In this document: positions 26,177 through 57,699 of the stretch, piece after piece | How the letters are laid out: every line of letters begins with the position of its first letter | How positions within the stretch are numbered: position 1 is the first letter of the stretch | From: Dioszegia crocea | Taxonomy: Eukaryota; Basidiomycota; Tremellomycetes; Tremellales; Bulleribasidiaceae | Length of the DNA: 64,000 nt | Assembly: GCA_001600615.1 (NCBI GenBank) | Contig: BCKK01000011.1 | Location: 186,001-250,000, forward strand | Direction: 5' to 3' | Program-made: the position numbers and the translations under genes | The notes under the pieces: generated by a model | What the model saw: only the letters and a program-made list of their open reading frames with translations | Database searches by the model: none | Told to the model about the DNA's origin: nothing

Positions 26177-26475
26177 TCAAGGAGTGGGCATGATCAGAGT
26201 CACTGCACACGACGCCATACAGGCGCCTTGAATCAATGAGCACCCCGGTGCGGCAGCTAGAACAGGAGTCAGCTTTGTTCGTCAAAGAAGATACTGATCA
26301 GAACGATCAGCTCACCCACGGCTCCAGGACCCATGGTCATCCCCGTGATAGCGACGACACACACCACAAGCCCCACGTTGCAGGCAGTCTGGCACAGACC
26401 ATAAGTGATTGGACCGGCGCTGACGGTGGCGAGGCTGACGAGACCGATGAGAGTGGCAGGGATGATGAAGTGCAT
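26177..26475 (-). CDS. Small secreted Cys-containing protein
   Basis: Two exons (26475-26316 and 26256-26177) give 79 residues. A signal peptide (MHFIIPATLIGLVSLATVSA) is followed by GPITYGLCQTACNVGLVVC, a Gly-rich hydrophobic middle, and a second Cys cluster (GCSLIQGACMASC) near the end. This layout is common in a basidiomycete family of tiny secreted or membrane-active proteins of unknown role, often repeated in the genome. It is unrelated in sequence and exon plan to the nine-member family at 34-58 kb. The gene has its own promoter in the following 1.8 kb. Confidence 0.75.
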
Positions 26476-34523: not shown

Positions 34524-35168
34524 CTAGTCCAGCCCGCTGAAGTAGTTGCAGCAGTCAAGGGCACCGATACCTGACGAGTCAGCGTCGAAGATAGTCAGAG
34601 ACTTTGGTACTCACCAGGGTTGGCAGCAGCGAGAGCGGCGCAGTCGCCCTTGAAAGAGGTCGTACCGGAGCCAGCGACCAGGTTGGAGAAGCCGGTGTAT
34701 GTCACGCACACAGCTCCAGCGTCGGTGGTGAAGATGGTGGCCTGGCAGGTGGCGTCTGTGGGATCAGTGATTTGCGGGGAGACTGGTCGACATTTAAAAA
34801 GCTTGACTTACCACCTGTACACAGGTCGATACAGTTAACCTGACCGGTGCTGGGGCCAGCGACTCCGACGTCATTCTGATCCATTAGCTAATACTCAGGA
34901 CATGGAAAAAAACTTGACATACCCCGACGAAGCCGATGTTGGCGGCGTAGTTTGCAAATTGCACACCTTGGCCTGCGGGAAGGGGAGAGCCGAGGCAAGT
35001 AGGGTAGATCCGGGCGGAGGGAGCCTGACGACGGACGACGCCGTTTGCCTTGTCCATCATACGCTTGGCCACCGCTCGTCGGTTGGTCTGCTTGAAGCCG
35101 GGTCGGGGGCGCGGCGCAGCAATGACGGTCGAAGCGAGAAGGAGGGTGGTGAGGATGGAGGCGAGCAT
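34524..35168 (-). CDS. Secreted eight-Cys family, copy 1 (intact)
   Basis: Four exons (35168-34923, 34875-34812, 34755-34615, 34570-34524; phases 0/1/1) give 165 residues. A signal peptide (MLASILTTLLLASTVIAA) is followed by a propeptide beginning APRPRPGFKQTNRRAV and ending GVVRRQ, a Kex2-type Arg-Arg site. The predicted mature part (about 116 residues) has eight Cys: YPTC, NCIDLC, ATC, AVC, GDC and DCCNYF. It ends FSGLD. I do not recognise the family. The closest copy is the broken one at 57.1-57.7 kb, at the far end of the other array. No transmembrane segment or GPI signal is seen, so a soluble secreted protein is expected. Confidence 0.85.
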
Positions 35169-36086
35169 TTTGTGTAGTTGTACGGGATGATGCGAGGAGG
35201 TTGAGTAGGTGGAGATGAGGCGAGATTTTAAAGGAGTGTGGTGCAGTGTGGTGCAGTGGGGTGTACTGGAGTACTAGTGTGGATTGGTAGGAGAGGGCAG
35301 ATGAGATGTGAGATGGGGATTATCGTCTGGGAAAGTCTGCCTTATATGAGTCTTCAGACCTCTAGCTGTTTGGATGTTTGCGCTCTATGTTTGTGCAGAC
35401 TTACCATGGGATGGGTGTGCGTTCACATCGAGTTCCTCGGTAGGCGGGTGACGATGTTCCCGAGGAGCTTAGGTCGGGCGAGTTCGAAGCACAACATCCG
35501 GCGGAGGCCTTGGGAAGAATCGAGTGACATCACATTAGGCAGCTCAAGGTTTGCCTTTATGTGGTCACTCGAGTCCGTCTGTGTGGACAGGAGTGAAGGT
35601 ATGAGTGCACGAATCAGATCAGCCCATAGAGCTTCTCGCTGGACGGGCTAGGCGGCTTTGGCTGAGTTTGGTGTGGGCGAGCTTTGAGCAGAATGGGCAG
35701 TGTAGAGCATCGGAAGGCTCGACTGGCATCATCGTGTCTGCCGAAGGTTTGGCTAATGTTTGCTTCCTCAACTGCATTTGTGTGAAGCGGAGTGACAAGT
35801 ATGAAGGCACAATCAAAACATCCTCGATTCCTAAATTTAGCTGTCACTTGTGCCTGATTTGCACGGGTACCTCAAAGATCCTCCCCGTGACATCATTCCT
35901 TATTGGTCTGTGGCAAGGCTGTGTCCATCTGTAAGAGGCGCTCTCCAGTCGCAGTGCCATCAAGCTCAGCTGCACTAGCAAGCGTCAGTCCAGGCGATTG
36001 GCACACGCGTAAGTGGCGAAAGTGGCCATAAATCCCAGTACATTCAAGGTCCATAAGTGTCCTGAGATATCTAGTCCAATCTCCTG
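35169..36086. other. Intergenic between family copies 1 and 2
   Basis: This is the promoter side of copy 1. Around 35800, on the minus strand, a stretch containing GTTTTGATTGTGCCTTCATA matches one at about 56495 on the plus strand, consistent with duplicated flanks. I see no gene. Confidence 0.4.
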
Positions 36087-36299
36087 TTACCCAGAGCAAG
36101 CCTGAAACCAGAAGAGGAATCGACCCAGATCAAGCCTTATAGCAGCACAACTCATGAGGCTAGACGTCCATCTGACTGGCACCATCCCTTTAATCAAGGT
36201 TACCGCTTCGCGTGTCGTTTGTTTGAAGCCCGGCTGAGGAGCGGGTACGGCGAGGACCGAGGCGACCAGGAGGGACATGGTGATCAGGTAGGAGAGCAT
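36087..36299 (-). pseudogene. Secreted eight-Cys family, copy 2 (truncated relic)
   Basis: The start is conserved: a signal peptide (MLSYLITMSLLVASVLAV) and PAPQPGFKQTTREAVT as in the other copies. The similarity then stops abruptly, before the Arg-Arg site and all the Cys exons. The frame runs on as unrelated sequence to a stop at 36087. A short GTTGTGCTGCTATAAG motif downstream may be left from the Cys-Cys exon, suggesting an internal deletion. It is probably not functional. Confidence 0.7.
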
Positions 36300-37080
36300 G
36301 GTGAGGGTCTGTGGGAGATGAGCTAAGGCGTCCGGAAATGGCAAGGGATTTGGGTAGTGTAGATGTGACAGCCAGATAGTAGAGTGAGGTGGGTGATTGA
36401 GCTCAAACTGGCCGCTGCCTCTGTTGTTGTATCCTCGCCCTTCCTCGATTGACACATCAGCAGCTGTCAACACGGAAGCCCCCGGCTGCTCGGGCCGCCC
36501 GTGTGTATGCGGAAATTTGCTGGCATGAGTGCCTGACCATGGGTTGGTTTCTGCTAAACCTGTGGGACGGGACTCTGAAGGTGCGGGCGAGATATGGCGA
36601 AGCTTGGCGAAGATGGCCGATCTGGGTCGATAGGGGTCGATCACGATCAACAACCCGAGTTTCCAACCGATGGGAGGCATTACGCCAGCTGACTCTGGAC
36701 CCTTGTCCTCTCTTCTTCCTGGAATCCTTAACCAGTCAAGCTTTTATGTTCTCAGCCTCTTCAGCGCTCTCTCAGTGTGTATGTACGCGGCCTACATTCG
36801 CTCCCAATCAGGCTGCCGCCCTGCATGACTCAATGACAGTGACCACGCTTGGGCCGTCTCCGTGAACCGGATCCAATCTCAGCTCTGTACAACGGCCGCA
36901 GCACCATACTCCAGCGCGGGCGGATCAGAGTGGGTGCCCAGCCCATAGTATCTAGCGGTACACAGTCCATATTGGTACCTAATCCTATTAGCAAAAAATG
37001 TGACCTAGGGGGATCTCGCGGATAGGTATCCTCGCCGCCTGTATCGGACTAAACCCCACAGATACAACATTTAAGGAAGA
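36300..37080. other. Intergenic between family copies 2 and 3
   Basis: This holds the promoter side of the relic and the 3' flank of copy 3. GGTACCTAATCC near 36974 recurs near 38280 after copy 4, so 3' flanks were duplicated with the genes. No gene is visible. Confidence 0.4.
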
Positions 37081-37727
37081 TCAAGAGGAGCCTGCAGTCC
37101 AGTAGTTGCAGCAGTCCTGAGATGCAATGTCTGGTAGTTAGCTCCATCATGCCTAATGACTCACTAGGATATGTGGCAGCTAGTGAAGCGCAGTCGGTTC
37201 GAGCGAAAGAGAAGCTGGTTCCGCCCACATCCAGACCGGTGTACGAGGAATAGAGAGTACAGTAAAAGCCGTCGAAGGTGGCGACTCGACAGGGTCCTTC
37301 TACAATAGGTTAGCCAAAACCGCGCGATGAGTTGCTAATAGGGAATACATCAAGCTCACCTTGCGCACATGTTTCTGAACAATCGTCGAAGCTTGTACCT
37401 TGAAGCTTCGCGAAAAACTCTGTTGTCATTAGCGCTTATTGGTACATGGCCGATAAGTAGGCAGACGAGACTCACGAGGCCGACGGGGGAGACGCTGCCA
37501 TCGTACCTCGCAAAGGACACACCCTGGTCGGCTGGGCCAGAAGATGAGCAGAGATCGTATACAATGGGCATGGGCGAGGGAGCCTGACGACGAGCGATAC
37601 CCTTTGCCCTATTGGTAAGACGCTTAGTTACCGCCTGACGGGTAGTCTGCTTGTAGCCCGGCTGAGGAGAGGGAGCGGCGAGGACGGATGTAACGAGGAG
37701 GACGGTCGTGATTACAGAGACGAGCAT
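37081..37727 (-). CDS. Secreted eight-Cys family, copy 3 (intact)
   Basis: Four exons (37727-37476, 37417-37360, 37299-37165, 37130-37081) give 164 residues. The signal peptide is MLVSVITTVLLVTSVLAA, the propeptide PSPQPGYKQTTRQAV up to GIARRQ. The eight Cys fall at YDLC, DDCSETC, PC, YC, DC and DCCNYW. It ends WTAGSS. The second exon acceptor is taken as ACAACAGAG, the only choice keeping the DDCSETCAQ frame. Inner copies of both arrays (here, 38.4, 52.8 and 54.1 kb) share the KQTTR and AKGI or EKGI wording. Confidence 0.85.
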
Positions 37728-38398
37728 GGTAGGGGATTTCGATGCGCTAAATACGGGTCAAGCGGGCGGTGTTGATGGGTGGTGATGGATTTAGACCTCA
37801 AAGTGCGAAGGTAAGAGGTGAGCGGTGACATGTGAGTCAGGCTGGCCTTGCAGTATTCGCTGGGTCTTCGAGGTGGGGAGAAGAGGTGGTTGTTGAAACG
37901 TTTGACGAGGTGTTTGCTGATTCGTAAATCAGACTCAACTCGTGATCCATGGCTTGGATTGCTGAAAGAGGCGGGACCGAACAAACGCCTGTCCGCACAC
38001 TTGCTGTGATCGTCGGGATGACCCTGGCTCGTGGGTAGGGCGCCCGTGTACCCGTGTGAAGGGATCATCGGAATGCGGCGCAACCTGAGCTTTGTTTTGA
38101 TTAGGCCGATAGCGCTCAGACTCGCTCAGATCATCAGATACTGCTCAGATCAAGCCTTCCTGCCTGACACTTTCTACAGTATTTGTGCATGAGCGCCGGG
38201 CTGCACCACCGGACGCCAGCGAGCGCGATCAAGTAATCCACTACATGTCAAGCCCAAAGAGTCCAGCTATAGTCCGTATCGGTACCTAATCCCGTGAAGA
38301 GCACTACAATCCAGCCGACAAGAGGAGATGAATCGAGGGCACACCTCTCCTTGACGCCTAACTCGGGCCGGATCCAAGATCCGACCAACATGATCCAT
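37728..38398. other. Intergenic between family copies 3 and 4
   Basis: Promoter side of copy 3 and 3' flank of copy 4. No gene is visible. Confidence 0.4.
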
Positions 38399-39064
38399 CT
38401 AATCAAGAGGAACAACAGGATCAAGAGCCGGAGTCCAGTAGTTACAGCATGCTGCAGATGCAATTCCTATTTGTCAGTCTTGACAAGATCGAGGACTCAC
38501 CAGGGTATTGGGCAGCTAGAGAAGCGCAGTCATTCCCAGCGAAAGACCAACTGTAGATGGACGGGAACAGCTGGCCGTAATTAGTGTAAGCAGTACAGCC
38601 CCCCTGCTCGAAAGTGACAGCCTGACAGATAGCGGGTTCTGTGACAATTCAGCCAAATGATAGGACTGGGCACCGAGCCCGTGAAAGCAAGTGAAGCTCA
38701 CGTTGTGCACACTTGTTGGTACAATCATCCAAGTCTGTACCTGCGAAATAGCCGCCGAATGTCTGAGTGCATAAGCGTTTATCCGGTGGTGAGACATTGG
38801 CAGGAAGACAAGACTCACGGCCATGCTGTAGTTGATGCTGCCAGTGTATCTCGCATATAGTGTGCCCTCTTGGGCTGGACCAGAAGTCTCGCAACGCGAG
38901 TACGACCTGGGCGAGGCAGCCTGACGACGAGCGATGCCCTTCGCCCGCTTGGCAAGACGGTCGGTCACCGCCTGGCGGGTAGTCTGTTTGTAGCCGGGCT
39001 GAGTAGCAGGTGCGCCTAGAACGGCGGTCGCCAGGAGGACGGTTGTGAGTAAGGACGCGAGCAT
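38399..39064 (-). CDS. Secreted eight-Cys family, copy 4 (intact)
   Basis: Four exons (39064-38819, 38762-38702, 38638-38501, 38466-38399) give 170 residues. The signal peptide is MLASLLTTVLLATAVLGA, the propeptide PATQPGYKQTTRQAV up to GIARRQ. Cys positions are YSRC, DDCTNKC, IC, GC, DC and ACCNYW. The C-terminus is slightly longer than in other copies (TPALDPVVPLD). It is most like the plus-strand copy at 54.1 kb. Confidence 0.85.
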
Positions 39065-39479
39065 GAGGGGAGTGTCAAGGGAGTTGAAGTGTGTAGAAGG
39101 CTAAGCTGATAAATAGAGTCAAACACAGAGGTGGTTGCGTGAGTTCCGGTCAGCATTGCGTATAAATAACATCCTCGCCAGCCTGCCGTGCAGGCACGAC
39201 TGTTTGCCTCTGCTTGCTGTTGGCTGTATCAGTGTTCGGCACCACAAACGCATCACAAACGTGAACCTAACATCGACAGTGAGCTGTTTCAGAAATTACG
39301 GCAGGGGCAGGGCTTGATAGTGCGATCAAATAACACGTCAGTCTGCTCGGTGCCCTGTTCCGCCGGAACGGTTTATATCCGGCTCAAACTCGGGCCGAGC
39401 TCGGATATACATATCTGGCCTCTCAAAGCTCAAAGTTGCTGCTTTATCTCTACACCTCTACACTTCGCTCCTCCAGAAC
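39065..39479. promoter_or_regulatory. Divergent promoter, family copy 4 / galactokinase
   Basis: This divergent region separates the lineage-specific array from the conserved core. TTTATATCCGGC near 39370 is a weak TATA-like element. No galactose-specific site can be named from sequence alone. Confidence 0.4.
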
Positions 39480-41517
39480 ATGTCAGAATCCACGCCACGG
39501 ACAGCAGCATCCATCAGACCAGAGGCACTGCCCGTGCCCAACTTTTCGTCCTTGGCTGAAATTTACCCTAGTACAGCCTCGGTCCTCCGGGAAGGGTCAG
39601 TTGAGTCGCTTTTGATCATCGCGCAGAGCTGATATTCATAGATCTAGATGGAATGAGCTTGTCGAAGCCTTCTCTTCGCGATATGGCTCTGCGCCGACTC
39701 ATATCGTCCGAGCTCCCGGACGAGTCAACATCTTAGGAGAGCATATTGATTATTCGCTCTTCGTGAGTTCGCCGAAATTTCCGCGGTCGGTTTCGATACT
39801 GACGCTATCAGCCTGTCCTCCCAGCGGCTATCGAGCAAGATATCCTTCTGGCCCTCCGGCCCCTCCCACCTTCATCCTCTGATCCATCAGTAGACTTGTC
39901 CAACTACAACCCGAAGTTCAAGGCGTCGTCATTCCCTCTGCAGGCCCCTTCGTCAGGGACGACCGGCGGGGAATGGCATGTCGACTTCACGTCCCCCTCT
40001 GAGGGTGGAGGATGGGAGAACTATGTCAAGGTGGCGTTCGCTCAGTGTTTGTCTGAGTTCTTTGGACAGGATGCTGGAGGTAAGAGCCAAAAAGGTCCGG
40101 TGGGGATTCAAGTTATGATGAGTGGGAGTGTACCCCCTGGATCGGGTCTCAGCGTGAGTTGTTGTCTGATAGAGCTTGGGCATAGGCTAACATACTAGAG
40201 CTCAGCTGCAGTCGTTGTCGGCGCCGTTATCACTTTCTTGGTCGCTAATGGCATCACGAAGGGAGTGACGAAGGGAGATGTCACGCGACTCGCAATTGCC
40301 AGTGAACATCGTATGGGCCTGCGGACAGGAGGGATGGATGTGAGTCTCTCGACGCTCACCCAGGAGTTGCTGAGCTGACCCAACATAGCAAGCCGCATCG
40401 GCTCTAGCACTCCCCAACTCCCTCCTCCACCTATCATTCTTCCCTTCGCTCTCCCCTCTACCTCTCCCACTCCCCTCTGGCCTCTCAGTCGTAATCACCA
40501 ACTCCCTCACTCCGCACTCTCTCACCGACACCGCTCCGGTCCAGTACAATCTCCGCGTCGTCGAGTCTCTCTGTGCTGCCCGGATACTACTCAAGGCTTG
40601 GGGTCTATCAGACCACGAGCGAGTAAGTGGGAAGACCGGTGAAGAGGCTAGGGTATGGTTGAGGGAGGTGTTGGAGATGTGGCGGCCTGGGAAGGTAGAT
40701 GCCGAGGGTTCTGAGGTGTTGGAAGAAGCGATCAAAGCTGCAGAGGAAGTATTGGGTGCGGGCGGAAAGGGAGAGAAGGGATGGACGAAGGAGGAGATGG
40801 AATCTGCAGCGGGGATGGAGAAGGGGGAGTTTGAAAAGACATACCTTGATTTCTTACCTAGTAAGTCTATCCAAAGGGGAATGATGGGGGGACTGTTCGC
40901 TAAGCTTCAGTCCGGGCAACTCACTTCCACCTCCTCAATCGAGTCCTGCACGCCCTATGCGAATCACAACGCGTCACCCGCTTTACCCAGATTTGCCGCT
41001 CGTATTCCTCCGACACTTCAGCTACGTCCGACAACAAGTCTGATCCTCGTATCAAAGAGCTGGGAGAGCTGCTGGTCGGGAGTCATACGTCCTGTAAAGA
41101 GTTGTATGACTGTACCCATGCGCAAACGGATAGTTTGCGGGATCTGTGTATGAAGTCAGGGGCTATTGGGTCGAGGCAGACTGGTGAGTCTCGCTTCTGC
41201 TACTCTCTCATCGAGATCGAGCTGTGTGATGCCTTTTGAGATAGAGAAGGATCAAGCTGATATAGTCAGGTGGTGGCTGGGGTGGGGCTGTCATTTCTCT
41301 CGTACATACAGCCCAAGCCGAGGCATTCTTGAAAACCGTCAAGGAAAAATACGGGCCGTATAGGGATTTAAGCGAGGAACGACTGCATGAAGAGGCGTTT
41401 GCAACGATACCGGGATGTGGGGCAGGTGGTGAGTTATTCCGTATCGCCCAAAGAGGGTCTGAGATAGACGTAAGCTGACGCGACGCAGTCTACTCTGTTG
41501 ATGGTGAATTGAGGTAG
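39480..41517 (+). CDS. GAL1: Galactokinase
   Basis: The enzyme phosphorylates galactose at C1, first step of the Leloir pathway, in the cytosol. Eight exons (39480-39595, 39642-39762, 39812-40153, 40199-40339, 40389-40860, 40911-41183, 41270-41428, 41489-41517) give 550 residues. GHMP-kinase motifs are all present: the galactokinase signature [13 protein letters not shown],  the phosphate loop [16 protein letters not shown] split by an intron, the MDQAAS segment split by another, and [13 protein letters not shown] near the C-terminus. The second exon has two in-frame acceptors six bases apart (39641 and 39647), adding or omitting Ser-Arg. The neighbouring GAL7/GAL10-type genes are not in the window. 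Confidence 0.95.
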
Positions 41518-41943
41518 AGATGGAAGGTTGGCCGAATGCATACTGTGCGAGAGGGGCTGCAAAGAGAGAATGTGAAGGGGGAAACTCTTGGCTTACCTTT
41601 GCTCAGATCGTGCCATCGCGATTGACCACACCGATTCCGATCACATAAGACGAAAACATTCGGCAAGCAATTGTGACTGACGGCCGTGCTGAGAGATGAG
41701 GGTGTGTGCAAGGAGCTCACAGCACAAGTCCTTTCTTCCACGACGTCTTCTTAGGCCATAAGACAAGCCTGACGTGAATGCGTAAGGTTCAGACGCGTGT
41801 GTTCAATAGTGGTGGAGTCTTAGCTTCACTATAGGGTCAAATTCTGACCCATCTTCACCGGACTGAGTGTACGACACCCCATCACGATGCATACATGACT
41901 ATCATGATTGTGAGCATACGCACCGAACCATCCTTGAGCTCTT
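41518..41943. other. Intergenic, convergent
   Basis: 3' flanks of galactokinase and the PP4 regulatory subunit gene. No gene is visible. Confidence 0.45.
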
Positions 41944-43912
41944 CTATTCCGCGTCCTTCTCCTCAACCTTTCCTTCTTCCACAGTAGAACTCTTTACCTC
42001 AACCTCGACCTCTATATCCATAGACTCCCCCTCGCCCTCTTGCTCCTCCTTCGCTATTTCCCCCATCACCTCCTTCTCCTCCAACTTGGCCTTCTTCGCA
42101 TCACCACCCTCATCAACTTGATCATTCCCCTCCACAGCCACTTCACCAGGCTTCTCTGGCTCAAACCTCTCGGCAAGACTAACGACAGATTTCGTCCTTG
42201 GCAAACCCGCAACCTTTCTCTCTTCTTCGACACCAACAGTTGTAGTTGCCGAGATCGGGACAGGCTTATCCGACATCCCATGAGGCGTCATATTGCCTCC
42301 TTCACCCGTACCCATCCCTTCGTCTGATCCCCCATTCTGGCCAATGACCCCACTACCATTCGTGGGGACAGCGTCGGCAGGGGGCTGAGTGATGGGTCCA
42401 GTATCCAACTCATCTACCCGACCAAGGTAAGGTTGATGTGCCGGATCGGACGATTCCGAGCCTGTCAACAGGGATTCGGGCTGGGGTTGAGAGGCAAGCG
42501 GGATTGGAGCGATAGGGATAGGTTGAGGTTGGGTAGGTCGAGAGGATGTTTCTTCTGGCTCAGGAGTTTGACTCCGGCCTGAAGAAGGCGCAGTGGACGA
42601 GGTGTCCAAAGACGTTTGATCGGCAACTTCCTTCTCATCCTCCGTATTTGTAATCTCCGCTTCGAGCTGCTTATCATTCAAAATGAGAGGACTCATCAAT
42701 TCCTCGCCTTTGACTCTTGTGGCGTCGGAAGATAGGTCCGAATCAATATCCATTCCAGAGCTTAAATCACTCTCGAATGGTGGTCGAACAAGGAATGGGA
42801 TGGGCGAGAACATGGGGGTTGTACTGCCTATAGGCATTGTGGAGTTGGAATCGGATGATGAGGCGGAGGAAGTCGAGGGGGAAGAAGTCGGGCCGAACAG
42901 ACCGCGAGAACCTGAGAATGTCGATGGTGGCTCAGCGACGTATGAAGGAGCTGACCAGGATGTGGTTACGAGTAGATTTTTTTCGAGCGCGCGGAGGAAT
43001 TTACCGAGTGTTGTATGGTGTTTAGTGGGATTTAAGAGCAACTCTGCTAGGCGTTGAATAGTGAATGGTGGTCTGGCCATAAGCGGGTATTCGACAATGT
43101 ATGTCAATGGTGGAACTTACTCTTCTAGCTCATCAATAATCTTGCCTACCCGCTCAACTTCCTTCTTTCCCTCATCCTCTTCCATCCACCCCGTCAACTT
43201 CTTTCCACCAATCACCACAGCCTCATCCCATTCATCCTCATATACGTTCCCCCTCGCCAATGCTCCTGCCTGGCCCCCAGCCCCCGAATGTCCATTCATC
43301 CGAGCAACCACCGCAGGCGGGACAGGACCTATCGCTCCGGCCGATAACCGCCTGTTGTTCCGCCGTTCAGGATCTAGTGGGGGAAAAGGCGGTATAACCA
43401 ACCCTCCGAGAGTTGACGGTTGTTCATCTGGCGGCAGGGTAGATTTGGAAAATGGAGAGCGGGATAAAAGGAGAGAGGAAGACGGCGGTACAGACGCAGA
43501 AGCGAATGGAGAGCCGGGCTTTATTGCACTCAAGGGAGAAGGTGTGGGCGATGTAGGTGTTGGATTTGACGGTCGGGAAGGTGTGTCGGGCGGAAATTGG
43601 TAGGCGGCTGGAGGGGCGCGTGATTGGAATATGGGTCGAGTGGAGAGAAGGGCGAGGTGCAGGTGGTGGCGCAGCGTAGGCCAGTCGGAGCTGCGATGTC
43701 AGTATGGGATATGATGATTTGAGACTTTGCGCAAAGTATCGAGATGCAGTACTTCTAGTACGATACTAGATCCACATAGAGAGAGACACTTACTCGAAGG
43801 TATCAGTCTTAGCCAGACGCTGCAGTATCGGGTCGTGTGAGGACTCTGAAATCGTCAGAATTCCGAATCAGACATCTTGGTATGTCAAGGGCCACTCACC
43901 CTCTTCCTCCAT
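41944..43912 (-). CDS. Protein phosphatase 4 regulatory subunit 2 (PPP4R2) homologue
   Basis: This is the likely core regulatory subunit of PP4, involved in DNA damage recovery and other nuclear roles. Four exons (43912-43900, 43845-43794, 43690-43121, 43072-41944) give 587 residues. The N-terminus (MEEE, HDPILQRLAKTD, DSDWPTLRHHLHLAL) and RPPFTIQRLAELLLNPTKHH ... FLRALEKNLLVTT match the R2 core. Between and after these lie long Ser/Pro-rich and acidic disordered stretches, ending VEEGKVEEKDAE. The 13-nt coding part of the first exon is short but joins cleanly. Confidence 0.85.
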
Positions 43913-44373
43913 TTTTGGACCCGAGTTGTGAACAGGGAGCACCATGATCTCCTCTGTGCTGACTCCTGGAAGGATCTGAAGAGATCTAGATAGCTTGCAA
44001 CTGCTTTAGGGATGATGGAACAGCCAAAAGGGCTGCGAAAACAAAAACAAGCCTCGGAAGAGACGCACGGACGTGAGTGAAGGGAGATCTTTACGTAACT
44101 CCTTCGGAAGTAGATCCGATTGCTGGACTTTTTAGAAGGCCCTCGAAGCTTTGCCTTTGCCTTTGTCAAAATCTACTCCTCTCCTCTATCCTCTACTGAC
44201 AGCTCACACGCGTATCACGCTCATACGTACACGTAGCTAGGATTACTCCTCGCTATCAATACGGCAGCCAGGAATTTCACGTCGAAAATCAAGGCGAATA
44301 GACTGAACCGACCGCCACTCAGCTCCTATCGCTCAACCCCCCTTTCAACCCTTGCATCAGCTAGTCAATCACC
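43913..44373. promoter_or_regulatory. Divergent promoter PP4R2 / Hsp40
   Basis: Promoter and leaders of two divergent genes. GAAnnTTC-like pieces occur near 44090 but no clear heat-shock element can be claimed. Confidence 0.4.
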
Positions 44374-46099: not shown

Positions 46100-46477
46100 G
46101 GGGTTAGCCGGGATCAGGTGTGTTGGCGCAAGGCAAGGGACTACGCAATCAGTCAGTGCTGGAGGTGGAAGCGGAAGTGGAGGGGAAAGAAGGAGAGTTT
46201 ATCGGTATTGGAAGTTGAGAGTCTGTCATCACGAGTTAGGAGTTTGCTGGGCCTCTATAGATTCCTTATACCCACGGCTTTACGCATTTAGATATGGTGT
46301 CCAGTTCTGGGAGTTCGCAGCATTTCAAGACCGATGGCCGAGCGCCTGCGCCGTGCCTGACGCAACCTTATTCGAGCCCTCCCAGAAACGCGTCCTGACG
46401 CGACTTGACGCGTTCAAATTTCCCCGCCCTTCTTCTCATCCATACCCCCCTCTCACACCTTACACACTCAGCCCAAC
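46100..46477. promoter_or_regulatory. Intergenic, MCM6 promoter
   Basis: This contains ACGCG-rich pieces just before the MCM6 start (AAACGCGT near 46386, GACGCGAC, GACGCGTT near 46405). ACGCGT (MCB) is the classic G1/S element in fungi; the core here is suggestive. Confidence 0.4.
46385..46413. promoter_or_regulatory. Candidate MCB (ACGCGT-type) cluster upstream of MCM6
   Basis: ACGCGTCC, ACGCGACTT and ACGCGTTC occur within about 30 bases, 70-90 bases before the ATG at 46478. In yeasts, MCB sites bind MBF and give G1/S expression of replication genes. Binding here is inferred. Confidence 0.5.
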
Positions 46478-49706
<3,229 letters not shown>

Positions 49707-50427
49707 GGCCGAGGAGGGGTTGGAAATTGGGGAGAGAAGAGATAGTCCGGGTCTGGGGTTTATAAGTCTCCATTTAGTTGTCATTCTTTGGGTATATGAA
49801 ATCAGTGACTGTATCTCAATATCTGAAAATCACAACGTACATAGCCTGAGCTTGGACAGGCTTCGGACTTGTCACTTCAGGGCAGTCACAGTATGTGAGT
49901 CGGAGAGTCTGAAAGGGCATCGGATCAGATCGGATCTATCCTGATCTATCCCACGGGACAGCACCATGGCCCACATGGGATGGGCTTATGCTGAGCTTGT
50001 TCGGGTCAGTTTCGGGTCCGAAGAGGCTGATCATCAATCTGATGACTATCTGATGGACCCAGGTGTGATCGAGAATGCCGTACAGCTATATACTCCATGA
50101 GTTGGAAAGCTCCAAATTAATTATGCAGATCATCATGCTCTATCGTGCCCCATCAGATGGTCCTGCTGACTCCTGCAGTGGTACTACCCACAAGACTGTC
50201 CACTACTCGCCTATGTACTACTCGCCTCCCACTTGCGCAAGCCCCAGAGATTCGATGTTTCTTTGCGGACAAACTGCTGACAGGGTGTTGTTTGGCACTG
50301 GGACGAAGAGGGGTGTGTAAGGGCTGACCTCCCTCCCTCTCCCTCTCCCCTTCATCTCACCTCACTTGTCAACAAGTGCACCGACCTTCCACTCTCCTCT
50401 CTCCACAACCACATCCCCAAGCTCGCG
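49707..50427. other. Intergenic, promoter of family copy 5
   Basis: The left part is the MCM6 3' flank; a CT-rich leader precedes the ATG at 50428. No gene is visible. Confidence 0.4.
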
Positions 50428-51083
50428 ATGCTTCTGTCAATCATCACTGCCTTCCTCCTCTTCACGTCCGTCCTCGCCGCGCCGCGCCCTCAGCCTGTGA
50501 TCTACAAGCAGACGAACCGACGAGCCGTGTCTAGGCGGCTCGCCGACAGGGCCAATGGCATCGCTCGCCGTCAGTTGCCCTCGCCCAAGGTATACCCCAC
50601 TTGCCAGAACACTCGCCTTCAACCAGGTCCAGGACAGGGTCTGGTATTTGCTACCCTCTCTAATATCGCAGTCCAGGATGTAATCTTCTCATCCAGCGCG
50701 CCCCGAGATCTGCTGACGATTTCAGTTTGCTTATTTCTCTATCCCGGACGAGAGCGCGAACAAGGCTTTCTGCATTGACACGTGTGCAGCTACCGTCAGT
50801 GAGTTGAGACATGTCCACCCGTTGTTCGGACACCGACTGACCATGTCGTAGGTCCAAACAATTGCGAGTTGGCGGTTGTTGCCCAAGGCAGATGTTACAT
50901 ATCAGGGAGGTATCACAGCTTCGTTGAATCAACCAACACGGTCGCCATTAAAGGACAGGATTGTGCTGCCATAGTTTCTACTTATCCTGGTGAGGAGTCA
51001 GCCCCTGCATTTGCTGACTGCCAGAGCTATCCGCCGTCGAGTGCTGTAACTACTATGCTCTGGAACCTGTGGCAGAGCCTTAG
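50428..51083 (+). CDS. Secreted eight-Cys family, copy 5 (intact)
   Basis: Four exons (50428-50679, 50726-50798, 50852-50989, 51025-51083; phases 0/1/1) give 173 residues. Signal peptide MLLSIITAFLLFTSVLAA; propeptide PRPQPVIYKQTNRRAV to GIARRQ. Cys positions are YPTC, FCIDTC, NC, RCY, DC and ECCNYY. The second exon is 12 bases longer than in most copies. This is the only copy with PVIYKQ instead of PGYKQ or PGFKQ. The C-terminus (YYALEPVAEP) resembles copy 8. Confidence 0.85.
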
Positions 51084-51450
51084 AGGGGTGGTCGGTCGGT
51101 GGAGCTCGGCGACAAAACAGATTCTGCCGGCCGTGATCTTTTTGCGGCGTATCATAGCCAGCAACCTTCTTTTGGGGATTCTCTTGCGGACAATTGTCGG
51201 GGTTGAAGTTTGAGAAGGCTTCAATGTCCATTTCGTTGGATCTGGAGACACTCTTCCTGCTAGGTCGGATGCGAGGCTGTTCGGGTTATCGGCAGGACTT
51301 GCCCTCAATCTAGTTAGATTGGACCGTATGCAGTCACCAAGCATGTTCAGGGTCATTTATCTTCCCCTTCAGCGCAATATTCCTCGACGCTTCAGGCTGC
51401 TGAACAGTAAGCTACATGTCTACCTCTAGCCATCTAATTCAGGGTTCTAC
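51084..51450. other. Intergenic, convergent
   Basis: 3' flanks of family copy 5 and the uL10m gene. No gene is visible. Confidence 0.45.
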
Positions 51451-52275
51451 TCAAGCAGCTTCACTCTTCTCCCCCCCTTCGGTCTTCTCACCCTCCTTCA
51501 ATCCCTCCTCTAGCCCCTGTAACGTCCTCACTAATCCTCCACCTCCCGCTTGTCCTAGCACACCCAACAAGCCCCTGCCCTGCCCTTCCAGCATGCCCAC
51601 GACCTGCGCACGCAGCACATCCATCTCTGGTAGTTTCCCCACATTCTCCACCTCGCTCACCCCGACCAATCGCCCACCCTCCAGTATCCCCGCCACAAGT
51701 TGCAGACGCGGCTGTTTGACCTTCTCTGGCGGAGTATTGGGCGGTGCCTCTTTCTGCGCTTTACGCAGCGTTCGATTGATGGTAGTGAGGAGTTTGGAGA
51801 GGTAGGGCGGTGAGAGGGTTGGGGAAGTTATGAGGGCCGTAGGGCCGATGAGGTGGGGGAGGAGAGATGGTGAAGATGATGTACATGTAGGCGACTTGAA
51901 CAGGGATGATAAGAGACCCGTTCGAGAGATGGTCAATGTCGCTTTGGCATTTTGCTCATCATCGCCCTTGGCGATCGATGGTGGTGATGGGGAGTAAGGG
52001 GCGGGTGGTACGGGGATAGCAGCAATTGCTCGACGGATAGAAAGGAGGTTTGCGACGGTGAGATTGTCATGGGAGAAGAGTAGGACGAGCTGGGATGTGC
52101 GGAAGAGGTGTGAATAGTAGGCGTGTAGGAATGATTTTCGGGGGCCGTATATACGTGCTGTTGGTGGAGGAGGGGTGGATGATGAAGCGCCGGCTGAAGA
52201 ATTAGGAGCGGGAGCCGTGCTGGCCAGTCTGCGCGCTGTGAGTGTTACTGAGCGTAGGGATGTACGGGCTGACAT
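51451..52275 (-). CDS. Mitochondrial ribosomal protein uL10m
   Basis: Component of the mitoribosome stalk base. Single exon, 274 residues. The N-terminus (MSARTSLRSVTLTARRLAST) looks like a mitochondrial presequence. RKSFLHAYYSHLFRTSQLVL, HLIGPTALITSP, RLQLVAGILEGGRLVG and the final LGQAGGGGLVRTLQGLEEGL follow the uL10 pattern. The tail is Lys/Glu-rich. The frame is open upstream of 52275 without another ATG, so the MSART start is preferred. It interrupts the plus-strand secreted-protein array between copies 5 and 6. Confidence 0.8.
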   Translation of the reverse strand: MSARTSLRSVTLTARRLASTAPAPNSSAGASSSTPPPPTARIYGPRKSFLHAYYSHLFRTSQLVLLFSHDNLTVANLLSIRRAIAAIPVPPAPYSPSPPSIAKGDDEQNAKATLTISRTGLLSSLFKSPTCTSSSPSLLPHLIGPTALITSPTLSPPYLSKLLTTINRTLRKAQKEAPPNTPPEKVKQPRLQLVAGILEGGRLVGVSEVENVGKLPEMDVLRAQVVGMLEGQGRGLLGVLGQAGGGGLVRTLQGLEEGLKEGEKTEGGEKSEAA

Positions 52276-52794
52276 GGTTAAGATGGTGATTGTATAGGCG
52301 TTTCCAACTTTGGCCTTTGGCTGGCTGGCTGGCTGGCTGACTGTAGGTTGGGAGAAAAGGGGTAAATGCATGAAACATCAATATTTTCCTCTTATGTAAA
52401 CGCCAAGGGATGCCGTAAACGGGCCATGGGTTGGATTTTGCGGCTGTTTATTGAATTCCACATGCCAATCATCGTCCCTTCCTATGGGCATCACGAGCCC
52501 CAACCCATGGTCAGACCGCTAGCATTAGCATATATGGTGCTATATGGTGGCGCTCCTTCCTACCTGCCTTTTTAAAGCTTAAAATCTCATGTTCAGCGAA
52601 GATGTTGGGCCTGTTCGTAACTCGTCCATCGCTCTGTCAAACCTCAGAAGACTTACGATATATACGGGAAGCTTACTCAGAACTCGGTACTCACTGCTCT
52701 CGATCCTCTTCAATTGTTGACGACTCGATTCCCGAACGCTTAATAATTACACCCCGAGCCCTTTCTTCACTCGACCTCAGCCGAAACCCTCATC
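52276..52794. promoter_or_regulatory. Divergent promoter, uL10m / family copy 6
   Basis: No gene is visible. GATATATACGGG near 52658 is a weak TATA candidate for copy 6. Confidence 0.4.
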
Positions 52795-53449
52795 ATGCTC
52801 CCCTCCTTGATCACCACCGTCCTCCTCTTCGCTTCCGTTCTCGCCGCACCCTCTCCTCGGCCGGGATACAAACAAACCACTCGCCAGGCAGTGACAAAGC
52901 ATCTAGCCAACAGAGCGAAGGGTATCGTTCGGCGTCAGGCGCCCTCACCTAAAGTGTATCCACGCTGCTTGTCTTCTGGCCCCGCTGGCGAGGGCACGCT
53001 GTTCGCGAGGTACGACAACAGTGTGAGCATCCAGGTCACAGTAAGTCTTACCTGGCCCTCAAACTTCCGTCTACGCAATGAGCGCTGATGGTGCTAGGGC
53101 ATAAGTGGCGTCGCCCCAGGTGTCAGTACCGACGACTATGCGAACCAATGTGCACAGCGTGAGCTTTCCTTTGGTTATGGTTCCCATTTATCCCACGCGG
53201 ATAGCTAGACTGACTCATTGTAAGACCCACTACCTGTCAGGGTACAGACTATGAAAGTTTCCGCGAGTGCACATTTTATACCGGTTTCACCGACTTGAAT
53301 CCCGGCATCAGCACCGCTGCGCTCACCGGAGGGTGTGCCTCACTAGCTGCTGCGTATCCTGGTGAGTTTGCTGGACGTCGCAGAGCTGAGTTTGAGATAT
53401 CGCCTCACGGGCATGCTGCAACTACTGGACTCCAGGTTCGCCTCCTTAG
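52795..53449 (+). pseudogene. Secreted eight-Cys family, copy 6 (frame broken at an exon junction)
   Basis: Exons 52795-53040, 53098-53158, about 53225-53361 and 53397-53449 line up with the other copies. The signal peptide (MLPSLITTVLLFASVLAA), GIVRRQ, YPRC and the last exon (ACCNYWTPGSPP) are normal. The third exon is 137 nt instead of a length that keeps frame (138 in copy 4), so joining exon 2 to exon 3 at the available AG shifts the frame to an early stop. In addition, the first Cys of the C-x3-C pair is Tyr (DDYANQC). Recent inactivation is likely. An unusual splice site could still rescue it. Confidence 0.65.
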
Positions 53450-54102
53450 ATGCGTGGCGTCAGTAAGATCTGGCTCAAATCCTGCGGTTGAGCGCGCACC
53501 GCTCTGCTTACTTTGCATCTTACATGTATCTCTTAGGTTGAATTTGAGCTAAGCTATCGCTGGAGACTTCAGCGCGACCTGGCTCAATGTGCATTCGTGA
53601 GTTCTTGGTACGCGCAGGCTGGTGGATGTTCAGAATCGTGCTTCCCTCGTGGACTCTGAGAGGCTCTGGCCGAAGCGGTACAGACGCACTTGTGCACAAT
53701 CACAGATAGACCTAGTCCCGATCTGTCTCGACTGACTATATAGCGAGTCAGACAGTCAGAGTCAGAAGCTGTCGGGATGTCCAAAGAGTCTGGATCTCTA
53801 TGCACTATGGATGGACGCAAAATGAATTCCAAGCACTAGTTAGCTCCAGGCCCCAGGGCCCCAGGCCCCAGGCACGCGAAATGTCTTGTCCCGTGGGTTT
53901 GGTGGCTTGTGTCAAACTTTGCCTCCTCGTCTCAACCCATGGTCTTCGAAACTTTTTCAGCGCAAACATGCGGCATCGGTGGAACGTATAAGAGGCGGAA
54001 GCTCCAACATGAGCTTCCTATGTAGTCCCCACTACTTCTTCACCGTTACCACCCGCTCGCCCATCCCCTCTTCAACAGTATATCCGCCCCAATAGTCGCA
54101 AC
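53450..54102. other. Intergenic between family copies 6 and 7
   Basis: This holds a short GGCCCCA tandem repeat (53847-53874) and stretches that recur at 54.9-55.3 kb (GGTACAGAC, GGCCCCAGGCACGC, ATGTC[T]TGTCCC), so gene and flank were duplicated together. No gene is visible. Confidence 0.5.
53847..53874. repeat. GGCCCCA short tandem repeat
   Basis: Three to four imperfect GGCCCCA units (CAGGCCCCAGGGCCCCAGG...) end in GGCACGC. A shorter version sits upstream of copy 8 near 55169. Confidence 0.7.
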
Positions 54103-54776
54103 ATGCTCGGCTCCCTCATCACTACTTTCCTCTTCGCCTCGTTGGTTCTAGCTGCACCCTCCCCACAGCCAGGCTACAAGCAGACCACCCGCGAGGCGGT
54201 GTCTAATCGTCTTGCCAACAGGGAGAAGGGCATCGCTCGTCGTCAGGCTACCTCGCCCAGGCCGTACTCGCGCTGTGATACTTCTGGCCCAGTCGGAGAG
54301 GGCAGTGTATTTGCGAGGTACGACAGCAGCATCACCTTCACTTCCGGAGTGAGTCTCGCCTTTCCGCTTAGCTACTTATGTTACGATCAGCGCTCATAAT
54401 GATAGACCTTCCTAGAGACTGTCGCAGGTACGAGTGTCGATGACTGTACCAATCAGTGTGCTCAACGTGAGCTCTCTTCTGCTGATGGACTTTTTCGCCC
54501 GATTATACCAGTAGACTGATATGCTATTAGGACCTACCTGCCAGGCTGCCTATTTCTTTGCTGCTGCCGACCCTGATGCTTGTTTCCTATATAGCTCTTA
54601 CGGCGATCTCGCTGCAAGTAACCTTGGGATCTCCTTCCGCGGGAACGACTGCGCTTCTCTAGCTGTCCAATACCCAGGTGAGCACACAGACTTGGCAGGA
54701 CTGACAGTTAGATATTGCGTCTGCAGCATGCTGTAACTACTGGACTACGGGTTCGACCACGGTTTCTCCTCCTTAA
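54103..54776 (+). CDS. Secreted eight-Cys family, copy 7 (intact)
   Basis: Four exons (54103-54348, 54406-54466, 54531-54677, 54712-54776) give 172 residues. Signal peptide MLGSLITTFLFASLVLAA; propeptide PSPQPGYKQTTREAV to GIARRQ. Cys at YSRC, DDCTNQC, TC, AC, DC and ACCNYW. It ends TTGSTTVSPP. It most resembles minus-strand copy 4, including the YSRCxTSGP wording. Confidence 0.85.
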
Positions 54777-55439
54777 TCGAACGGCGCCAGCGAGATCTGG
54801 CTCAGGATCAGGCGGCGGCGGGGGGAACTAGTGGGCGCATATGTGCCGGATTTCTGGGCACTCTGCGTTCCAGGTATCTCACGTATATTGTAGCTGATGT
54901 CAATTATGGCTGGCATGGACGCAGGACGCTTTGGCTCAAGATGCACTCGTGGATCTCATTCGCGTGACTTGGTGTGTGTGGACAAAGGTCGGGTTTGCCT
55001 GCGGTTTCGCATAGCACGTATTTTGAGAGGGTCTGATTGAGGCGGTACAGACCTGTACAGACGCAGCAGTCACATCCACTGACTATCCACTGTCCAGCAG
55101 TATGAGTTGACTCGCTGTTGACTCATCAACTGAGATGGATGGATCATGGATGGATGAAACAGATGCCCAGGCCCCAGGCACGCCTGCCCGCGGCGTGACA
55201 TGTCCCATGGATAAGAAATCTGTCTCGCATTAGTGTTTTTGCCTGCTAATCTCAACAGGTCTCAACCCATGGTCATCGGGAGTCTCGGGACTTGTGCAGC
55301 GCGCGCAAACCTGCGAAAAGGGTCTCGAGCTTCAGCTATATGAGAGGGCGTAAGTCCCCACCACTGAGCACTCGTCACATTCACTCTCCCACTCGTCCAT
55401 CCCCTCTACGAAAATTGCATCAGCCCCTACAGTCACAAC
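54777..55439. other. Intergenic between family copies 7 and 8
   Basis: Contains a diverged copy of the 53.5-53.9 kb flank. No gene is visible. Confidence 0.45.
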
Positions 55440-56106
55440 ATGCTCGCCTCCCTCATCACCACTCTCCTTCTCGCCTCGTCTGTCCTAGCTGCCCCCGCTC
55501 CTCAGCCAGGCTACAAGCAGACCGATCGCGAAGCAGTCTCTAAGCGTCTCACGGACAAGGCCAATGGCGTTGTTCGTCGTCAAGCAGTCTCACCTCGGGT
55601 GTACTCTACCTGCGAATTCTCTCCCCTTCAAGCGGGCCAGGGTGGTGCGGTTTTCGCTGCGTACGGCGACAATCTCGCCTCAACAGCAGTACGTCAGATT
55701 TCCCCCATGCCACATCCAATCCGGCTAATGCTACCAGTATTCTCCTACTTTCCGTCCGGGTACTGATCAAGTTACCTGTACCAATCAATGTGCACTCGGT
55801 GAGTCGAAGGCTCTTTGCTCTCCACTCCAAATATCACACATTGTCTGATACAGCAGACCCTACCTGTCAGATCACTTTCCTCATCAACGATGAGGACGGT
55901 ATTCGTTGCGTCGGCTTCGAATCCTACTCCGACTTGGCCCCGTTCCCGGGACCCATCACCGACCCGTTCAGTACCTCCATCAGAGGCAGTTGTGCTACTC
56001 AAGCTAGTCTTTATCCTGGTGAGCTTCCGGCTGTAGGCAATGCTGACGGACAGACATCTCTACCACCGGCTGCTGCGACTACTACGCTCTGGAGTTGTTG
56101 CCCTGA
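55440..56106 (+). CDS. Secreted eight-Cys family, copy 8 (intact)
   Basis: Four exons (55440-55688, 55738-55798, 55857-56018, 56054-56106) give 174 residues. Signal peptide MLASLITTLLLASSVLAA; propeptide PAPQPGYKQTDREAV to GVVRRQ. Cys at YSTC, TCTNQC, TC, RC, SC and GCCDYY. The third exon is the longest of the family because of a Pro-rich insert (APFPGPITDPF). The GVVRRQ and LQAGQG wording links it to the outer copies 1 and 9. Confidence 0.85.
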
Positions 56107-57075
56107 GTGATTTTCTTGCGCGGCGGAGTGGACTGGGCCCTGGGTATTGGCCTCCTCATGACCGACAACGTTACTCTTTGGGGACCCAGTGGAGCGTATG
56201 GATAGTCGTAGTATCAGATCAAGACATGGACTATTGCCGGCTGTACTTTCTCGAGCCTATTGATGAGGTATCGCTGTACGTTCTGTACTGAAACTTCTGC
56301 CTTCACTCGCTCGTCCTACTGATGACATGCTGCGCGCTATCTACACCTGCTATCTACTACAAGTGAGCTAGGTTGATGGGCGATTCTGCTGCTGAACCTG
56401 ACAGACTATTGTAAAGTGGGGCGTGGCCGGGTTAAGCGACCCGGTGCAGGCACGAACCAGGTACGCTTGTTTGATCTTGCGGCTATTTGGGGTGTTTTGA
56501 TTGTGCATTCATACCTTCACATTTCACACCTTTTCACACGGGCGAGCTCATGGTACCAGACATCTGCGAACCTTGCGCAGCGCAACCCGGACGATATGAC
56601 TTCCGCTCCTTCCCATGCGCTATATATACCGTCTTCTGCTCGAAATCCGTTCACTTTGAGGTTCACAGCTCGTCCGGCGCGAGACGACATGCGGTGATTT
56701 GATCATGGACTTACAGTTTCACACCCATATCCAAACCGCTTGACCCTACAGCATACTAAATATAAACATCTACCGAACCTAGCCTTCGGGTGGCTGAGGA
56801 AATATCAGCCTCTCCTACCCATACGCTATACTTCCTGTTTTGCTTAGCGCTCGCCCAACCCATGGTAAGTCAGCTGAGACCCAGAGCGCACGCTCCCGAA
56901 GGATCAGAGGCCTGATGAAGATGTATAAGAAGCTCAACTTGCACAGACGATAATCCTCATTTCGCTTCATACCTTATTATTCACTCCAACACTCGCAGAA
57001 TCTACCCACACACTCTCCACCGCATCACTACCCACCAAGAACCCTCATCGCATCTACCCCCTACAAATGCACAAT
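56107..57075. other. Intergenic between family copies 8 and 9
   Basis: Around 56495 a stretch containing GTTTTGATTGTGCATTCATA matches the minus strand near 35800. No gene is visible, although a frame with TATATATACCG near 56620 is open for about 70 codons. Confidence 0.4.
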
Positions 57076-57699
57076 ATGCTCGCTTCCATCCTTACTATCA
57101 TTCTCCTCGTCTCGTCCGTCCTTGCCGCGCCCTCACCCAGGCCGGGCAAGCAGATCAACCGACGAGCAGTGGCCAGTCGCATGACCAAAAAGGCGAACGG
57201 TGTTTTCCGTCGTCAGGCAACCTCAGCCCGGATCTATCCTACTTGCGTCGACTCTCCCCTGGCCGCAGGTCAAGGGGCAGCCTTTGCGATCTACAATGCC
57301 AACATCAACTTTGAAGGAGTAAGTCTTGTCATCACCATACCTAAAGACCCGCTGACAACACAGAACGGTATCGCTATCTCTGCAGGAACCAGTCAGACTG
57401 ACTGCACCAATTAGTGTGCAAGTGGTGAGTTCAGTCTCAAGTCTCAATATCTAAGCCCACACAACTGACTCCGTAGCCTCTAGCTGCCAGGCGGTCCTGT
57501 ATGTCGACGACGATGGAGGCGTCTGTGTCTCATACACCGCCTTCTCCAGTCTCGAGCCATCCGATGTCACGGTCTCTTTCAGGAGCGACTGCGCCAGTCT
57601 GGCCGCTACCTATCCTGGTGAGTCTTGACTATCTGCAAAGCTGACTGATCAGCCATCTCCAATCTGGACTGCTGCAACTACTTCGCCCAGCTGGCTTAG
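57076..57699 (+). pseudogene. Secreted eight-Cys family, copy 9 (internal TAG)
   Basis: Exons 57076-57318, 57364-57424, 57477-57617 and 57653-57699 join in frame and all eight Cys codons are present. A TAG at 57412-57414 sits between the two Cys of the C-x3-C pair, where other copies have CAG or AAG. Signal peptide MLASILTIILLVSSVLAA, SPRPGKQINRRAV, GVFRRQ and the last exon (DCCNYF) are normal. An in-frame ATG at 57067 could add three residues. It is most like copy 1. It is either a very recent pseudogene or, less likely, read through or a strain-specific allele. Confidence 0.75.
57412..57414 (+). other. Premature TAG in family copy 9
   Basis: ACC AAT TAG TGT GCA; the intact copy 7 reads ACC AAT CAG TGT GCT. 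One C-to-T change explains it. Confidence 0.85.

Follow-up and report, generated by a model that had tools for sequence, protein, structure and literature searches.

What kind of protein is encoded by the cluster of similar short genes at positions 34524-57699 of a 64,000 nucleotide stretch of the Dioszegia crocea genome (the window), and what might such proteins do? Sequence comparison revealed an array of nine copies, each at the place given in the original prediction, of which six are intact (A, C, D, E, G and H) and three damaged (B, F and I). On the reverse strand lie copy A (35168-34524; exons 35168-34923, 34875-34812, 34755-34615 and 34570-34524; 165 aa), copy C (37727-37081; exons 37727-37476, 37417-37360, 37299-37165 and 37130-37081; 164 aa) and copy D (39064-38399; exons 39064-38819, 38762-38702, 38638-38501 and 38466-38399; 170 aa), together with copy B (36201..36299), a fragment consisting of the signal peptide and KQTTREAV, after which homology stops. 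The intact copies on the forward strand are E (50428-51083; exons 50428-50679, 50726-50798, 50852-50989 and 51025-51083; 173 aa), G (54103-54776; exons 54103-54348, 54406-54466, 54531-54677 and 54712-54776; 172 aa) and H (55440-56106; exons 55440-55688, 55738-55798, 55854-56018 and 56054-56106; 175 aa). Copy F (52795-53449), on the same strand, has its second Cys changed to Tyr and a broken frame at the join of exons 2 and 3, which are out of frame at the expected splice sites, and an unusual splice may still connect them. Copy I (57076-57699, forward; exons 57076-57318, 57364-57424, 57477-57617 and 57653-57699) has an in-frame TAG in exon 2. An additional ATG is located at 57067.

The seven fully modelled copies (A, C, D, E, G, H and I) all have four exons with phases 0/1/1, and intron 3 is 34-35 nt long in six of them and 44 nt in copy A. 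In the intact copies a predicted signal peptide and a KQT-x-R leader are followed by RRQ and then by eight cysteines in the order C, C-x3-C, C, C, C, CC (6/6), so that the shared features originally described, including predicted secretion, a cysteine-rich product and tandem duplication, were borne out. When splice models were enumerated, the top-ranked model of each of the six intact copies gave the identical protein; as the ranking profile was built from these same proteins, this excludes a better-spliced alternative and is not independent proof. Coding constraint was evident from the silent and replacement rates, and the four-exon plan was found again in unlinked paralogs. Sequence comparison, from which the exon joins are taken, therefore confirms that the array is a real gene family and more than chance.

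The mature part had been thought to match no known family, which proved not to be the case. Pfam PAN_1 was matched at E<=1 by 11 of 17 modelled members, with a best score of 29.1 bits (E 9.2e-7), and its gathering score was exceeded by six, namely G (23.4 bits; cut-off 21.4), L014, L018, L022, L025 and the first copy of L026. Copy C scored 20.2 bits against PAN_3, under the cut-off of 21.1; copies A and H had no Pfam match at E<=10 and copy E an unrelated match only, while at E<=1 the C1 copy had no Pfam match and L016 none to PAN_1. PAN_1 had no match in a six-frame search of the genome, possibly because introns split the domain. In NCBIfam the first member matched nothing; four families were matched, none by more than two members (best E 0.0048). 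When the family profile was compared with PDB sequences, the best match was MIC4 (E 2.2e-6 for the whole chain, 0.0075 and 0.02 for two PAN repeats), followed by MIC5 (7.8e-5; single domain, 8.2e-5), microneme antigen 2yil (5e-4), the Kelch-domain protein 6ryv (6e-4) and factor XI (0.13). For a control with columns permuted between the cysteines (one permutation), no match was obtained to Pfam (0/17 at E<=1) or to any PDB chain (E<=10). A strong match to a named family, the absence of which was central to the original prediction, was thus largely obtained, but 11 of the 17 members stay below the PAN_1 cut-off.

The PAN/apple fold is a five-stranded sheet around one helix. It is defined by four conserved cysteines, according to the part of PMC3338822 drawn on here, and the helix cysteines C2 and C3 are bonded to C4 and C5, the pairs being numbered differently in the relevant parts of two papers. 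All four PAN cysteines, with the C-x3-C, C, C spacing seen in the PDB profile alignments, are present in 16 of the 17 aligned members; the first is absent from the C1 copy and also from copy F, which is outside the alignment. We conclude that the mature part resembles a PAN/apple-type module in sequence, with a putative PAN fold. A new fold with a chance PAN resemblance in its CxxxC...C...C core, which would fit the majority of members under the Pfam cut-off and the four cysteines beyond the PAN set, is improbable, as several PAN structures were matched by the profile and none by the permuted control of identical Cys spacing.

Other cysteine-rich families were also considered. None of the 17 members matched the WSC domain (PF01822) at E<=1, the WSC order of C-x-C plus CGG is absent from their alignment, and the 66 WSC matches in the genome are all located elsewhere than the family members. 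Hydrophobins have eight cysteines with two CC pairs; here a single conserved CC is found, at the end, and no hydrophobin was among the Pfam matches. KEX2-processed repeat proteins were rejected too, each protein here having one leader and one mature domain with no repeated near-identical peptides.

Thirteen further PAN-type loci are dispersed across the genome. The 17-member alignment leaves out B, F, I, the second L026 copy (incomplete model) and C11b, in which the frame is broken by one base close to where the signal peptide ends. One of 23 places found with the C15 query, C2:2271871, was dropped since it has no leader. The C-terminal splice of C15 and of C11:20.7 kb is uncertain, and two C15 models differ there. 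Three of the nine matches in one genome search were C2:2509720, C8:930758 and C2:2778656 (E 0.003 to 0.8). A search of 5.8 billion proteins yielded five partial relatives. The damage in B, F, I and C11b agrees with the birth-and-death evolution originally proposed; taken as a whole, that first interpretation is partly supported, a lineage-specific origin and a role in competition, adhesion, or host or mate interaction being putative.

The two parts of the precursor differ in evolutionary rate. In nine pairs, dN/dS was 0.14-0.26 for the leader and 0.30-0.92 for the mature part, remaining below 1 in all nine and being higher for the mature part in every pair; the leader changes slowly and the mature part faster. 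Six leader positions (Q27, R30, R36, R47, Q48 and S51) are invariant in the 17 members, all of which contain [KR]RQ, whereas the mature parts average 28% identity.

The same signal-plus-propeptide leader was also found to head other cargoes: two knottin-like peptides and a class of two-cysteine proteins with five or six members. A profile of the 17 PAN-type leaders recovered all eight of these other-cargo leaders with E values of 5.8e-13 to 3.3e-8, against 0.013 for the best non-member and 0.011 for the best shuffled sequence; 216 signal-like ORFs were scored. With hhalign, columns 1-55 alone of the two main cargo classes could be aligned (E 4.3e-11), the alignment ending just past RRQ. Of 7994 candidates scored, none was related to the two-cysteine class at E<=0.01. 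The two cargoes with a knottin-like Cys order gave weak PDB matches, including antifungal peptide 1dkc (E 0.21); four small peptides among these matches (E 0.14-0.69) are presumably knottins, but the knottin matches are not significant, and L017 matches unrelated chains as weakly. The leader was not reported in the titles or abstract openings turned up by a literature search.

These data raise the prospect of a modular precursor system, in which one leader (QATR...RRQ) would serve at least three unrelated kinds of cargo, namely eight-cysteine PAN modules, knottin-like peptides and two-cysteine proteins. As in venom precursors, new extracellular cargoes would be acquired downstream of an unchanging unit for processing and export. 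We regard the case for and against such a system as evenly balanced. An upstream element may belong to the same module, but just one of the eight other-cargo genes has it in gene orientation. Of 13 close copies, nine have the motif CCCATGG upstream, and in the window CAACCCATGG is located on the reverse strand at 36537..36546 (upstream of B) and on the forward strand at 52501..52510 (F), 53933..53942 (G), 55263..55272 (H) and 56856..56865 (I), with a reversed occurrence at 52424..52433 on the reverse strand, upstream of F and also of a divergent ORF ending at 52371. Sequences with one mismatch to it lie on the reverse strand upstream of A (CATCCCATGG, 35404..35413) and of C (CAAGCCATGG, 37947..37956), the latter without CCCATGG and not counted. 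Most distant PAN-type members lack CCCATGG, which was found in two of nine, both reversed (p 0.11); among the eight other-cargo genes, one has it in gene orientation and one reversed. None of 30 loci around other CAACCCATGG sites contained a family match; therefore the element alone is no predictor of members.

We favour, with fair confidence, the reading that these genes, evolving by birth and death, encode precursors from which kexin processing releases extracellular binding modules. Each precursor would begin with a signal peptide, continue with a basic propeptide (K/R-Q-T/A-N/T-R ... R ... K/R-R-Q) and end in a mature domain of some 120 residues, which is predicted to be a single PAN/apple-type module with the PAN cysteines C2-x3-C3, C4 and C5 and the extra C1, C6 and C7C8. 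A single genomic locus matched a kexin-type P domain. Kexin would cut after RR/KR in the late Golgi, leaving an N-terminal Gln, and the released disulfide-held domain would bind protein or sugar at the wall, the capsule or the surface of another cell. As external partners changed, the array would have undergone amplification, recombination and loss.

Two other roles are possible but doubtful, to a similar degree. The copies may be structural proteins that cross-link or coat the fungus's own wall or capsule, with duplication for dosage. A Sclerotinia PAN protein is located in the wall and required for cell integrity, according to the section of PMC3338822 used here, and the element common to most close copies suggests common control; rapid divergence of the mature part speaks against plain dosage, and no anchoring tail was noticed by eye in the models. 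Alternatively, by analogy with cone snails, in which one leader serves many cargoes, the leader could mark an arsenal directed at competing microbes or small animals, its PAN-type, knottin-like and two-cysteine members being secreted antimicrobials or toxins. A conserved leader with diversified cargo, the knottin-like Cys order with its weak match to 1dkc and the damaged copies of the array would all suit such antagonism, but the knottin matches are not significant, PAN modules typically bind and are seldom toxic, and dN/dS is below 1 in the nine pairs. Much less probable is that the basic Q...RR propeptide, cut at both ends, is itself the product and a signal, with the variable cargo as carrier: invariant leader positions beside a divergent mature part, and an extra dibasic site before QATR or QVSR in C15, C11:20.7 kb and C9:345 kb, would fit, but in the window copies KQT is not preceded by a dibasic site, leader length varies among members, and the cargo is under selection, since its cysteines and open frame are kept.

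An apparent orphan family thereby becomes a recognisable one (PAN/apple), and a wider set can be sought with a defined search string. Confirmation of the shared leader would provide a fungal example of the conserved-leader, changing-cargo design; the leader could then serve to detect secreted proteins missing from the annotation of related fungi, and would raise the question of whether its own job is folding, sorting or signalling.

Known PAN/apple systems (PF00024, PF08277 and PF14295; solved in MIC4, MIC5 and factor XI) have the C-x3-C, C, C core and a signal peptide in common with this family, which differs in its single-domain proteins, four additional cysteines, CC-(N/D)Y end in the window copies, putative cleavable leader and tandem gene array with phases 0/1/1. 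The WSC domain (PF01822) of yeast Wsc1 likewise has eight cysteines, a PAN fold with four disulfides and a place at the fungal surface, as stated in the part of PMC9024836 drawn on here; Wsc1 has C-x-C (C69, C71) and a CGG motif, unlike the 17 members. Ss-Sl2 of Sclerotinia is also a secreted fungal protein with PAN modules, but has two of them and no such leader in the description taken from PMC3338822, compared with one module and a leader here. K2PP effectors similarly carry a signal peptide, a pro-domain and RR/KR ahead of the mature part, but the pro-domain is not described in the passages of PMC8528282 considered here as one sequence on unrelated cargoes, unlike the present leader. These effectors act on a host, and no plant host is known for this fungus. 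Conotoxin precursors are animal venom, and in cone snails one leader serves many cargoes; the cargoes here are larger PAN-type and cysteine-poor proteins and a toxin role is only putative, but both systems have a conserved signal and propeptide ahead of a diversified cysteine-rich mature part, with several cargo folds.

The gene family in the window forms an array of two arms, four copies (A to D) on the minus strand at 34524-39064 and five (E to I) on the plus strand at 50428-57699, separated by about 11 kb in which Pfam matches identify one DnaJ and one MCM gene. The genome is 20.57 Mb in 17 contigs, and the window is C11:186001-250000 (contig before the colon). Six of the nine copies (A, C, D, E, G and H) are intact. 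Of the other three, B is a fragment, F is damaged and I contains a TAG stop in its reading frame. The identical phase 0/1/1 plan of the original prediction was recovered in the models of all seven fully modelled window copies. Enumeration of splice models ranked the same six intact proteins at the top, with a profile built from those same six proteins. A 306-aa ORF on the opposite strand (51451-52371, minus) interrupts the tandem array between E and F, and the ORF and F have an upstream stretch in common; another ORF (26269-26757, minus) has a C-terminal half resembling a small secreted protein (GPITYGLCQTACNVG). Neither had a Pfam match at E ≤ 0.001.

The mature eight-cysteine part had been thought to match no known family, a view overturned by HMM search of the joined proteins. 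When the six intact window proteins were searched against Pfam, copy G matched PAN_1 with 23.4 bits (cut-off 21.4), copy C reached 20.2 bits on PAN_3 (cut-off 21.1) and copy D 14.1 bits; A and H gave no match at E ≤ 10, and E only one insignificant unrelated match. In an alignment of 17 members, comprising these six and 11 dispersed paralogs, 11 matched PAN_1, seven PAN_4 and six PAN_3 at E ≤ 1, and six passed the PAN_1 cut-off; PAN_1 scores were obtained individually for 16 members, the 17th (C11:20.7 kb) being assigned by subtraction as without a PAN_1 match at E ≤ 1. The profile of this alignment found ten distinct PDB sequences at E ≤ 10: MIC4 4a5v (E 2.2e-6 for its two repeats combined; 0.0075 and 0.02 for each alone), MIC5 (7.8e-5), 2yil (5e-4), MIC4 2ll3 (0.0066), factor XI (0.13, 2.7 and 2.8) and, in three versions, the Kelch-domain protein 6ryv (6e-4), which we take to be a PAN-containing copper oxidase of fungal origin. 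As a control for cysteine spacing, the alignment columns were permuted once between the cysteines, with spacing and column composition unchanged, and realigned; Pfam then gave no match at E ≤ 1 for any of the 17 permuted members, and the PDB search found no chain at E ≤ 10. The PAN matches in both databases and their absence from the control identify the mature domain, as judged by sequence, as PAN/apple. Of the eight cysteines, C2-C5 are the four PAN ones. All 17 members have Q27, R30, R36, R47, Q48, S51 and seven of the cysteines unchanged, and the remaining cysteine (C96 of G) is absent only from the C1 copy.

Searches with single members and splice modelling found at least 13 further PAN-type loci in the genome, a lower bound as are all the genome search counts; 11 of them are in the 17-member alignment. 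They lie at C11:154653 (with 88% exon-1 identity to A), C11:301703 (with a frame break), C9:538393, C1:789496 (Tyr in place of the first PAN Cys), C15:16418, C11:20713, C5:1357481, C4:1668700, C4:887127, C2:532710 and C7:1422709, with two more at C8:1074842-1077106. C15:16418, on a 25 kb contig, and C11:20713 are distant members with 65% identity over about 95 residues; each is within about 21 kb of a contig end and both are possibly subtelomeric. Beyond this genome, the relatives found were five partial proteins, the second such search scoring the 7995 candidates that shared most words. P0001 has 81% identity to A at 35% coverage, and P0002-P0005 carry, by reading, the leader of other members.

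The family searches also reached genes in which the leader precedes different mature parts. A two-cysteine class (alignment A4), with a single open frame and two conserved cysteines each, occurs three times in tandem on C7 and at C11:325670 and C6:1565004; C9:345052 is apparently related, with a seeming intron. In the fetched genome loci, these genes lie at 1772, 3550 and 5349 (+) of L019, 1971 (+) of L021, 2187 (-) of L070 and 2044 (+) of L020, the last with a seeming intron near the leader/cargo border by reading. None of three proteins scanned from this class had a Pfam match above cut-off. Two small leader-bearing proteins with a knottin-like cysteine order, without RRQ, are encoded at C10:289563 and C3:1981937, lying in the fetched loci at L017 2058-2366 (+) and L024 2117 downwards (-); they gave weak PDB matches (E 0.14-0.7) to peptides that are presumably knottins, L017 also matching unrelated chains. 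A profile from the 17 PAN-type leaders only found these eight other-cargo leaders at E 5.8e-13 to 3.3e-8, against 0.013 for the best non-member and 0.011 for the best shuffled sequence, among 216 signal-like ORFs (33 being leader-gene starts, nested starts counted). The 50 loci tested were the window and those fetched for leader matches or for the upstream element, and are therefore no random genome sample. A DNA pattern for QATR-x-[DEQH]-[IV] occurred 13 times in the genome, all 13 being such leaders by coordinates, and four times when reversed; since the pattern was derived from members, the informative point is the absence of other occurrences. When the PAN-type and two-cysteine profiles were compared, the alignment was confined to columns 1-55 and stopped shortly beyond RRQ-x-S-P (97% probability, E 4.3e-11).

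Among the nine closest members, mean identity fell from 0.62 in the propeptide to 0.38 in the mature part; the corresponding values for all 17 were 0.45 and 0.28. For the signal peptide and propeptide together dN/dS was 0.14-0.26, compared with 0.30-0.92 for the mature part, which had the higher value in 9/9 pairs, by a simple counting method with several pairs near saturation, the pairs non-independent and three including damaged copy I. Between A and its C11 sister, silent sites of the leader differed more than those of the mature part (p 0.004, rounded counts), a hint of recombination or conversion. Four of the 15 inner branches of the tree were well supported; A paired with the C11 paralog C11a with good support, and E with H and D with G less surely, so both arms hold related copies.

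The element CAACCCATGG occurs six times in the window (0.1 expected by shuffling) and 38 times in the genome. Eight of the 38 sites are within 600 bases upstream of one of 29 leader-gene starts (0.03 expected): those of B, F (two), G, H, I, C11a and one C7 two-cysteine gene; the other 30 had no family match nearby. CCCATGG, in gene orientation at -167 to -291, is present in 9/13 close members (A, B, F, G, H, I and the C9, C11a and C11b paralogs; absent in C, D, E and C1) versus 4/81 window background tiles; as the copies are related by descent, the p-values for the element are nominal. Upstream alignment is wider and spans the element in A-C11a, A-I and I-C11a, so its sharing may partly be plain inheritance. 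G and H align only from -79 to the start, the element being present in both yet unaligned there, and F-G and F-H align over the element only, at about shuffle level (24 vs 22; 26 vs 27). This argues for functional retention of the element in F, G and H.

Gene structure, leader and PAN membership are shown by sequence comparison. From established knowledge, the signal peptide would direct ER entry, a kexin-type protease would cut after RR/KR, and the mature PAN module would bind protein or sugar outside the cell. A kexin-type P domain was found at one place in the genome, where the six-frame reading crosses a stop, possibly intronic.

Yeast Wsc1 demonstrates that a PAN fold can have eight cysteines, its two extra bridges being placed in their own way (PMC9024836). 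None of the 17 members matched WSC at E ≤ 1, and the 66 WSC matches in the genome at E ≤ 0.01 all lie away from the family loci, on C1, C2, C4, C6, C9, C10 and C11, many of them clustered. A Sclerotinia PAN protein accumulates at the wall and helps to maintain cell integrity (PMC3338822). For K2PP effectors, the authors of PMC8528282 predict that pro-domains aid folding in some cases. KEX2 repeat proteins (PMC6339444) differ from the leader-bearing precursors.
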